Of a stretch of 64,000 nt of DNA, positions 6,195-10,174 are shown in pieces. The notes beneath the pieces were generated by a model. The model ran no database searches. It was not told the DNA's origin and worked only from the letters and a program-made list of their open reading frames with translations. Position 1 is the first letter of the stretch. Each line of letters starts with the position of its first letter. Position numbers and translations under genes: made by a program. Location of the stretch: the NCBI GenBank assembly GCA_016870355.1, contig VGBR01000001.1, positions 314,989 through 378,988 on the forward strand, given 5' to 3'. The DNA comes from Actinomycetota bacterium. Its GTDB lineage: Bacteria; Actinomycetota; Acidimicrobiia; IMCC26256; PALSA-555.

Positions 6195-6254
6195 CGAGCA
6201 AGCGTGCCATCATCGATGTCGACGCAGCGAACGAGTTCTACACGGAGAGTCGAC

Positions 6255-7259
6255 ATGGCCCTGATCCACAACGTTGTCGGCACGCCCACCGCAGCGAGAG
6301 TGCTGCTGCTGGTGCACGGCCTCGGTGCCGATGAGCGCGACCTCGGCGGCCTGCTCCCGTACCTCGACCCCGAAGGGCGGTTCCTCACAGTGCTGCCCCG
6401 CGGACCCCTCGCGGCGCCGCCGGGCTTTGCGTGGTACGGCATGGCCGCGATCACCGGCCAGCCAGGCGGCGACGCCGACGCCGAGTTCAATGCCGCGCTC
6501 GACGAGCTCGACGACTTGCTCGATGAGGTGTGCGCGGAGCACGACAAGACGCGCGCGGAAGCGATCATCGCTGGGTTCTCCCAGGGTGGCGCGTTGGCGG
6601 TCGCGCTCGGCTTGCGTCGCAGCGATCGTCCTCACCCCGCAGGTGTCATCGCCATGAGCACGTATCTCCACGGCGGCGTCGACATCGACTGGGACGCGGC
6701 AGCAGAGATCCCGGTGCTCGTCCAGCACGGCACCAACGACTCCTTGCTGCCCGTCGAACGAGGTCGCGACTTGGCCAAGACGTTGGTGGAGCACGGTATG
6801 CCCGTCGTCTACAGCGAGTATCCGATGGAGCACCAGGTCGCGATGGAGAGCGTGCAACAAGCACACGAGTGGCTGCTCGCAGTGAGTGCGGGCGAACGGC
6901 CGAGTGAGGCGCTGCCGGAGCCACCGCCGCCCGCACTGGTGCAGCCGGTCACGACCGCTCAATGGGAGACGGCGGTGCTGCGCTCAGAGCTTCCGGTGAT
7001 CGTCGACTTCTGGGCGCCTTGGTGCCAACCATGCCGCATGGTCTCGCCGATCGTCGAGCAGATCGCGGCGATGCGCGAGGGCGCCTACAAGGTGGTGAAG
7101 GTCAACATCGACGAAGAACCTGCCCTCGCGCAGCAGTACGAGGTGCAGAGCATCCCGATGATCGCACTCTTCCGCAACGGCCGGTTGGAGCGCTCGGTGC
7201 TCGGCGCGAAGCCGCGTCAGCAGCTCGAAGCCGAGCTAGGGATGCTCGTCATTCCGTAG
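6255..7259 (+). CDS. Fusion protein: alpha/beta-hydrolase (phospholipase/carboxylesterase) plus thioredoxin
   Basis: Residues 1 to about 210 are a carboxylesterase/phospholipase (PF02230-like): LLLVHGLGADERDLGGLL oxyanion region, nucleophile elbow GFSQGGALAVALG, Asp in VLVQHGTNDSLLPVERG and catalytic His in YPMEHQV. After a Pro-rich linker (LPEPPPPALVQ), residues ~235-334 are a complete thioredoxin: IVDFWAPWCQPCRM with both redox cysteines, the IDEEPALAQQYEVQSIPMI cis-Pro loop and a terminal helix. I do not know this pairing as a common one. Both active sites look intact and the frame is continuous. Start ATG 6255 follows a GGAGAG site; longer upstream frames run antisense to the acetyltransferase. 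No signal peptide, so cytoplasmic. Confidence 0.85.
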   Translation: MALIHNVVGTPTAARVLLLVHGLGADERDLGGLLPYLDPEGRFLTVLPRGPLAAPPGFAWYGMAAITGQPGGDADAEFNAALDELDDLLDEVCAEHDKTRAEAIIAGFSQGGALAVALGLRRSDRPHPAGVIAMSTYLHGGVDIDWDAAAEIPVLVQHGTNDSLLPVERGRDLAKTLVEHGMPVVYSEYPMEHQVAMESVQQAHEWLLAVSAGERPSEALPEPPPPALVQPVTTAQWETAVLRSELPVIVDFWAPWCQPCRMVSPIVEQIAAMREGAYKVVKVNIDEEPALAQQYEVQSIPMIALFRNGRLERSVLGAKPRQQLEAELGMLVIP

Positions 7260-7461: not shown

Positions 7462-8556
7462 TCAACCGGAGACGCCAAGGTATCCCGTACGGTCTCGGAT
7501 CGCGTGCCCGATGACGCCGCTGGCCAGCGCCCCGTGACGTTCAAGCGCACGTACGAGGTCACCGGCGCGTGTGCTTTCGACCGCCAACAGGAGGCCGCCG
7601 CTGGTCTGCGCGTCGGCGAGCAGTAGCTGCTCGTCGAGCGGGAGCCCGTTCCACTCCACGTACTCAGTGATGAACGCGTGGTTTCGCTGCGTGCCGCCGG
7701 CGACCATGCCCTGGGCCAAGAGGTCGCGCACGCCGTCGATCACCGGCACCGCCGGTGCATCGAGCTCCGCTCCGAGGCCCGAGGCGACGAGCATCTCGCG
7801 GAGATGGCCGACCAACCCGAACCCGGTGACGTCGGTGGCGGCGTGCACCGCGTCGCCAAGCTCGAGCGCAGCGTCGCGTGCCCCAGCGTTCAACGTCGTC
7901 ATCACTCGAACTGCTTCGGCGACACGCTCGTCTGGCGCCGCGTCGCGCTTGACCGCGGTGGAGATCACGCCAAGCCCGATCGGCTTTGTGAGCACGAGCG
8001 CGTCGCCCGCTTGTGCGCCGGCGTTGGTCAGCACCCTGGCGGGGTCGACCGTGCCGACGACGGCCAGCCCGAACTTGGGCTCGGCATCGTCGATCGAGTG
8101 ACCGCCGGCAACGAGCGCGCCGGCGGTTCGTACGACGTCGGCACCGCCGTCGAGCACGCGCGCGAGGAGCTCAAATGGCAGTCCTGCTCGCGGCCATGCG
8201 ACCAGGTTCAGCGCGAGCAACGGGGTGCCGCCCATCGCGTACACGTCGGAGAGCGCGTTGGTCGCAGCGATGCGGCCCCAGTCGTAGGGGTCGTCGACAA
8301 TAGGGGTGAAGAAGTCGGTGGTCATGACGATCGCGAGGTCGTCGCGCAGGCGGTAGACGGCCGCGTCATCGGCCGTGTCGAACCCGACGAGCAGGTCAGG
8401 GTCGGTCGTGTCGCGGTCGAACCCTTGGACGAGACCCAGCACCGTGCGCAGGTCGTCGGGTGAGAGCTTGCAGGCGCAGCCAGCGCCGTGCGAGAAGCGC
8501 GTGAGGCGGATGCGCTCCTCGACGCCCGTTCCGTCGCGTGTAGGTGACGTGCTCAG
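7462..8556 (-). CDS. selD: Selenide, water dikinase (selenophosphate synthetase), cysteine form
   Basis: SelD makes selenophosphate from selenide and ATP, the selenium donor for selenocysteine or selenouridine. The frame matches the AIRS/PurM-like family throughout (MTTDFFTPIVDDPYDWGRIAATNALSDVYAMGG, TDVTGFGLVGHL, ADAQTSGGLL). The first ATG/GTG/TTG in frame is GTG 8442, but that would remove the active site. Upstream the same frame reads IRLTRFSHGAGCACKLSPDDL, matching the E. coli N-terminus with its catalytic Cys17 and Lys20. The only plausible start that keeps it is CTG 8556, overlapping the preceding TGA as CTGA. The catalytic residue is Cys, not Sec. No selA, selB, tRNA-Sec or selU-like gene is in the window. 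Confidence 0.9.
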   Translation of the reverse strand: MSTSPTRDGTGVEERIRLTRFSHGAGCACKLSPDDLRTVLGLVQGFDRDTTDPDLLVGFDTADDAAVYRLRDDLAIVMTTDFFTPIVDDPYDWGRIAATNALSDVYAMGGTPLLALNLVAWPRAGLPFELLARVLDGGADVVRTAGALVAGGHSIDDAEPKFGLAVVGTVDPARVLTNAGAQAGDALVLTKPIGLGVISTAVKRDAAPDERVAEAVRVMTTLNAGARDAALELGDAVHAATDVTGFGLVGHLREMLVASGLGAELDAPAVPVIDGVRDLLAQGMVAGGTQRNHAFITEYVEWNGLPLDEQLLLADAQTSGGLLLAVESTRAGDLVRALERHGALASGVIGHAIRDRTGYLGVSG

Positions 8557-9691: not shown

Positions 9692-10174
9692 TCAGAGCAC
9701 TGGCCAGCCCTGGAAGGCCGGTGGGTCGCCCTCGCTGGCGACCTCGGGTGTCGTCCACGCCGTGAGCTCGGACGCCTCGCGCGTCACTCGCTGCCACTCG
9801 CGTGGATCCCATCCTTCAGCGGCCGTCACGAGTGACGTGTCCTGTCGCAACAGCACGCACGCGGGGAGTCGCTCGAGCCCGAGGCTCTTGACGAGCTCGA
9901 GATCGGGGTCCACGTAGGTGACGACCGTGGACTCCGCGTCGCCGAGCATGCGCTTGGCGACGGACTCGGGGCCGGTCACGACGAACGCGAAGCGACAGTC
10001 GGCGTCACCGAACACCTGGAAGAGGCGCATCCCGATCGGGACATAGGACGCGGCCTCGGATCGCGCCGGCAGGACGACGAGGAAGAGGTGGAACATCGTC
10101 GACCAGTCGTCGAGCGTCCGGGTGACGCCCTGGCTGGTCGTCAGCTTCAGCGCCGGATCGGGGTTCTTCGCCAC
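9692..10174 (-). CDS. Thioredoxin-fold/redoxin-like protein without an obvious CxxC
   Basis: A 160-residue soluble protein whose pattern resembles AhpC/thioredoxin-like folds: LKLTTSQGVTRTLDDW at the N-terminus, a hydrophobic strand LFLVVLPARSEA, FAFVVTGPESVAKRM, TYVDPDLELVKSLGLERLPACVLL with the family's cis-Pro-like ERLPACVLL segment. No CxxC or peroxidatic TxxC motif is visible at the expected place, so redox activity is doubtful. It is a single-gene unit followed by a strong terminator. The call is by pattern only. Confidence 0.6.
   Translation of the reverse strand: MAKNPDPALKLTTSQGVTRTLDDWSTMFHLFLVVLPARSEAASYVPIGMRLFQVFGDADCRFAFVVTGPESVAKRMLGDAESTVVTYVDPDLELVKSLGLERLPACVLLRQDTSLVTAAEGWDPREWQRVTREASELTAWTTPEVASEGDPPAFQGWPVL

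Follow-up and report, generated by a model that had tools for sequence, protein, structure and literature searches.

What would a cell gain from building a serine esterase and a thioredoxin as one polypeptide, and is the polypeptide real? Both questions are raised by an open reading frame (ORF) in the stretch of DNA analyzed here, 64,000 nucleotides from an acidimicrobial member of the Actinomycetota (order IMCC26256), which we call the window. The gene and its parts are laid out as follows.

6255..7259, + strand: esterase-thioredoxin fusion gene, a single ORF of 334 amino acids plus stop, with orthologues
6244..6247, + strand: GGAG, a likely ribosome-binding site 7 nt 5' of the ATG at 6255, read from the sequence
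6291..6875, + strand: PF02230 esterase domain, residues 13 to 207 (Pfam)
6579..6581, + strand: catalytic Ser109 (GFSQGG), in 51/51 fused and 9/9 unfused esterases, aligned to the GFSQGG of 3cn7
6738..6740, + strand: catalytic Asp162, in 51/51 fused and 9/9 unfused esterases
6831..6833, + strand: catalytic His193, in 51/51 fused and 9/9 unfused esterases
6879..6941, + strand: Pro-rich linker, about residues 209 to 229, with G213 in 50/51 and P216 in 51/51 fusions
6942..7235, + strand: PF00085 thioredoxin domain, residues 230 to 327 (Pfam)
7020..7034, + strand: WCQPC active site (C257, C260), both cysteines in 51/51 fusions
7203..7256, + strand: fusion-specific C-terminal segment GAKPRQQLEAELGMLVIP, residues 317 to 334, mean pairwise identity 0.896

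The first-pass annotation had described a phospholipase/carboxylesterase-like domain with a Ser-Asp-His triad, connected through a Pro-rich linker with a full WCQPC thioredoxin, and the coordinates, the domains and both active sites are as it claimed. A domain search placed both families above their Pfam cutoffs within the one ORF, PF02230 (Abhydrolase_2) with 62.1 bits against a gathering cutoff of 23 and PF00085 with 90 bits against 23.5. The thioredoxin part also passed the TIGR01068 thioredoxin equivalog (106.9 against a cutoff of 96.8, and 109.9 in the genome-wide search). The esterase part fell short of the esterase PRK11460 equivalog (NF008525; 28.4 bits against 191) and is the sole PF02230 match in the window genome. 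The position of the start codon is common to the relatives, and inspection of the window protein by eye revealed no apparent signal peptide.

A frameshift or an assembly error that joins two genes can mimic such an architecture, and the earlier annotation had named this as the finding that would undo its claim. The distribution of the gene makes this origin exceedingly improbable. Of the 58 genomes in the source order, 49 gave a match at an E value of ≤1e-30, and 46 carry the fusion in one piece (the match in G034 begins at residue 42). Only G048 has it divided between two contig ends, and G012 and G014 have the esterase alone. The remaining nine (G009, G013, G020, G035 to G037, G049, G053, and G056) gave no match, and five of these are only 64 to 77% complete. 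Across the class (395 genomes), matches outside the order covered one domain only, esterase or thioredoxin, or, in G337, contained stop codons. A fusion profile run against 396 genomes of the phylum matched five, namely the window genome, G019, G400, G414, and G428, the last three of which belong to another class in which all three sampled genomes carry the fusion. Inheritance and transfer are both possible explanations for its presence there. Reach beyond the phylum was covered by a plasmid scan and by a contig scan of close relatives, in which 84,980 species yielded 311 relatives; among the best 80 of these 311, 32 are full-length fusions (L004 to L035), and one of them, L029 (IMCC26256), lies in a complete genome. 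In none of 72,556 plasmid records did a match span 80% of the query, and a narrow pattern for the C-terminal tail gave no match in viral contigs. That the fused thioredoxins share a private tail, described below, is a further point against an artifact. Three of the contig records (L004, L031, and L032) are labeled as Bifidobacterium breve metagenome-assembled genomes; the gene in them is of the Acidimicrobiia type, and the labels are probably wrong. One genome (G041) holds two fusion paralogues (L014, 3876-6065, and L022, 5001-6020), one of which has a long linker (about 54 residues, counted from one reference column to the other).

Both halves of the protein appear to be held by selection. 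The 68 fused ORFs reduced to 48 distinct sequences, and three from the other class brought the alignment to 51. S109, D162, H193, C257, and C260 are unchanged in all 51, as are D251, W253, W256, and the cis-proline P301 of the thioredoxin. The residue following the first active-site cysteine varies (G in 28, Q in 16, others in 7), so that WCQPC is a minority form of the motif. Among the fusions, the esterase has a mean pairwise identity of 0.540 and the thioredoxin one of 0.770; as listed above, residues 317 to 334 have the highest. NG86 dN/dS ratios were 0.08 to 0.25 for both domains in four comparisons with the window gene; across seven pairs they were 0.09 to 0.33 for the esterase and 0.01 to 0.21 for the thioredoxin, some dS values being near saturation. 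Ratios this low in both domains indicate purifying selection on both. With the esterase by far the less conserved half, the thioredoxin could be the main enzyme of the two, a point against reading it as an arm in the service of the esterase.

A structure model built from 33 aligned fusions (mean pLDDT, 93.2; pTM, 0.82) bore out the two-domain layout, with residues 1 to 213 matching PF02230 esterases and residues 227 to 334 matching thioredoxins (Z about 20 to 21). The fold of the esterase is that of Pseudomonas aeruginosa PA3859 (3cn7), Pseudomonas fluorescens esterase II (1auo), PE8 (5dwd), and human APT1 and APT2. VIA-align comparisons with these and with 4fhz gave Z scores of 25.6 to 27.2 and root mean square deviations of 2.2 to 2.6 over 203 to 208 residues. 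The GFSQG nucleophile motif and the positions of the Asp and His, aligned with 3cn7 and 1auo, are those of the PF02230 LPCE family. Unlike the fusion, the chains of PA3859, esterase II, PE8, and APT1/APT2 carry no thioredoxin. The nearest solved relatives are the bacterial carboxylesterases PA3859 and P. fluorescens esterase II; the human acyl-protein thioesterases have the fold in common at about 20% identity, and a depalmitoylase-like activity, suggested by the annotation from sequence, is possible. To our knowledge, physiological substrates are not established for most bacterial PF02230 members. In phmmer alignments, the P48-W60 loop of the fusion is 3 to 6 residues shorter than in PA3859, FTT258, esterase II, and PE8. 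Its counterpart, the β3 loop, is thought to determine substrate specificity in the PF02230 family (PMC5493697), and PMC5438404 describes PA3859 as a protein of unknown function that lacks BioH activity.

The thioredoxin half has the marks of canonical TrxA, including WCxPC, the equivalents of D251 and cis-Pro P301, and the TIGR01068 match, and it superimposes on Mycobacterium tuberculosis TrxC with a Z score of 21.1 and a root mean square deviation of 1.5 over 107 residues. Canonical TrxA stands as a separate protein, whereas the thioredoxin of the fusion is bound to the esterase and has a K.R.Q motif and an LVIP end. Natural thioredoxin fusions include NTRC (thioredoxin reductase-thioredoxin) and Msr-thioredoxin proteins, in which, as here, a thioredoxin is tethered to an enzyme. 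The partners in NTRC and the Msr proteins are redox enzymes, whereas the partner here is a serine hydrolase that has no redox chemistry of its own.

Could the thioredoxin act on the esterase to which it is attached? The first-pass annotation had imagined a redox-controlled esterase, which would mean a thioredoxin that controls the esterase by reducing a disulfide. The window protein has three cysteines, and C93 is the only one in the esterase, so that no disulfide can form within that domain and control through an internal disulfide is unlikely. The presence of C93 in 47 of 51 fusions would allow a mixed disulfide with mycothiol or with the thioredoxin arm, but the residue is missing from the other four and occurs in six of nine unfused esterases. 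We regard redox control of the esterase as poorly supported and very unlikely.

The thioredoxin domain ends in a near-invariant sequence, KPR.QLE.ELGMLVIP followed by the stop codon, which the first-pass annotation had overlooked. All 48 fusions have the K.R.Q motif and a tail ending in [LI]V[IL]P (44 LVIP, 3 LVLP, and 1 IVIP), and among the 63 separate thioredoxin ORFs none has the K.R.Q motif or a [VIL][VIL]P end. To trace the tail at the DNA level, the degenerate pattern GANYTNGGNMTGNTNGTNHTNCCNTRR was searched over the 395 genomes of the class with the reversed pattern as a control. It was found at 48 places in 47 genomes, and a comparison of coordinates showed that all 48 are the ends of fusion genes. 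The 337 class genomes of other orders contained no match, and the reversed pattern matched in none of the genomes listed. A Val-Val-Pro also occurs near the end of M. tuberculosis TrxC, which the structural aligner extends as far as residue 334 of the model. For the last four residues of the fusion, pLDDT was 64 when the whole protein was modeled and 61 when the thioredoxin was modeled by itself; confidence this low in both means that the model does not firmly dock the tail on the esterase, and docking of the tail on its own esterase is thus unsupported by the predicted models. A tail that is conserved, although the models neither fold it nor dock it on the esterase, suggests a role in binding a partner.

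Such conservation outside the active site bears on whether the thioredoxin acts without redox chemistry, as a scaffold or chaperone arm that stabilizes or recruits the esterase. Surface and tail residues vary no more than those of the active site, and the linker is predicted to be well ordered (block means for pLDDT of 97 for residues 211 to 220 and 88 for residues 221 to 230), both as a scaffold would have it. A pure scaffold would have no need of C257, C260, D251, W253, W256, and P301, every one of them present in 51 of 51 fusions, and we consider this explanation unlikely.

How the two halves came together, and came apart again, is recorded in part by unfused relatives. A tree of 60 esterase domains groups two unfused esterases of the f2 family (L137 and L138) together with two fusions at an SH-aLRT of 90 (not starred) and thus places them within the fused group, the branch separating that group from the outgroup being weak (58). 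Both retain the start of the linker, and their loci retain the selD neighbor at 71 to 76% identity. Between esterase and selD at these two loci, a search that detected its positive control found no thioredoxin remnant. The nesting among fusions, the linker start and the selD neighbor, together with the missing remnant, make it most likely that the f2 family kept the esterase and lost the thioredoxin, as judged from the sequences of two genomes of one family. Relocation of the f2 thioredoxin was considered and set aside, since 11 genomes without a full fusion hold no separate thioredoxin of the fusion type (best, 46% identity); the same 11 gave no match to the tail. In a thioredoxin tree of 89 rows, which includes 26 of the 51 fused sequences and has few columns and some long branches, the fused thioredoxins occupy one side of a branch (SH-aLRT 94). 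The simplest reading of this one tree is a single origin of the thioredoxin arm. An ancestral operon with esterase and thioredoxin as neighbors, suggested by the G337 match over query residues 5 to 305 with stops, was dropped because inspection by eye found no thioredoxin in any frame behind the unfused esterase L131.

The genome around the fusion was also considered. In the window genome, a canonical trxA adjoins trxB (406 bits) on contig C3; the cell therefore has a thioredoxin reductase, and the thioredoxin in the fusion comes in addition to the canonical one. Upstream of the fusion lie genes for a PhoD-like phosphatase, a SnoaL-like protein, a uridine-kinase-like protein, and a GNAT acetyltransferase (- strand). 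Downstream of the fusion (+ strand) follow a selD-like gene (- strand), an NlpC/P60 gene (- strand), a gene for a 160-amino-acid protein, and one for a metallo-beta-lactamase-fold protein. Two of these recur near other fusions.

7462-8550, - strand: selD-like gene with AIRS domains, whose active motif (GAGCACK) is of the Cys form
9692-10174, - strand: 160-amino-acid protein without a Pfam match, whose cluster occurs in 21 of 48 fusion loci

The first of these we take to be selD from its sequence and from recall, Pfam giving AIRS domains only; it is present in 29 of 48 clustered fusion loci. The GTG listed as its start, at 8442, probably lies too far downstream, as conserved sequence continues upstream in frame. 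The 160-amino-acid protein is, by eye, a candidate for a thioredoxin fold. Among the 48 fusion loci, with neighboring genes called by ORF conservation and not by a gene finder, 38 of the 42 genes called next downstream and 30 of the 45 called next upstream lie on the opposite strand. With its neighbors mostly on the opposite strand, the fusion looks monocistronic, and its context names no pathway. The Cys-form selD and NlpC/P60 genes are frequent neighbors, though in the opposite orientation, and we did not retain them as clues to function.

A gene standing alone, outside any pathway operon, would suit a defense against thiol or electrophile stress. In this explanation, the esterase, an enzyme like MhqD, YahD, or an S-formylthiol hydrolase, clears toxic esters and quinone or aldehyde adducts, and the thioredoxin repairs oxidized thiols. 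The two activities run side by side, and the fusion does no more than secure their joint production. Weak scores link the esterase to MhqD and to the copper-inducible hydrolase YahD, and an MshC-like ligase gene (L191, G000:C8:32046-33212; 425.1 bits, below the cutoff of 485.1, with a second match of 287.5 bits elsewhere) suggests that the organism may make mycothiol. The score for MhqD, the methylhydroquinone degradation carboxylesterase (NF047577), is only 35.3 bits, far from its equivalog cutoff of 325. Parallel action also leaves unexplained both the strict conservation of the tail and linker start and the fact that the tailed type of thioredoxin never stands alone. A stress defense is conceivable on this evidence but somewhat doubtful.

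We tentatively prefer to see the thioredoxin as a redox-active arm that captures clients for the esterase or targets it to them. The esterase exists without the arm in the f2 family, and the tailed arm was never seen without the esterase in 395 genomes, which argues that the arm serves the esterase. This one-way dependence, in which the loss is drawn from the two f2 genomes, is our main reason for favoring a capturing or targeting arm, and the invariance of both catalytic sites in 51 of 51 fusions is in its favor. An arm that works through a tight interface with the esterase is harder to reconcile with the data, since none of the 31 esterase positions on which at least 49 of 51 fusions agree has changed in the two f2 esterases. 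The protein would be cytosolic and made of two parts, both of them catalytic: a serine esterase or thioesterase of the PF02230 type and, covalently attached to it, a thioredoxin that the cell's ordinary thioredoxin reductase (TrxB) probably recharges. The WCxPC arm would grip or reduce cysteine-bearing client proteins, or thiol compounds, and so bring the esterase to them, and the esterase would then cleave a neighboring acyl ester or thioester. The near-invariant LVIP tail, predicted to be disordered, would most likely be a docking peptide for a third partner. Delivery of the thioredoxin or of the esterase to a target, which the annotation had also imagined, is possible. One elaboration strikes us as improbable: a redox-armed serine thioesterase whose arm captures S-acylated or blocked cysteine proteins, perhaps as a transient mixed disulfide, and passes the acyl-thiol to the esterase, leaving the client thiol free and reduced, with the exposed LVIP tail recruiting the enzyme to a dedicated partner.

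The first-pass annotation did not recall this architecture as described, and we likewise found no esterase-thioredoxin or hydrolase-thioredoxin fusion in the open-access literature; passages of PMC5962788 make no mention of a thioredoxin, a hydrolase, an esterase, or a fusion. InterPro or UniProt may already list the combination without a paper. It is a real and conserved pairing, new and apparently undescribed, of two known families. Dozens of genera keep it, and strict selection acts on both active sites and on the private tail, which indicates that ester or thioester cleavage and thiol redox chemistry are linked in these little-studied bacteria. Should the redox-armed thioesterase prove true, it would amount to a cysteine-restoring machine in a single protein and would speak for reversible S-acylation of proteins in these organisms. 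For the PF02230 family, a CxxC trap together with the LVIP tail offers a direct handle for finding the clients of one of its esterases.
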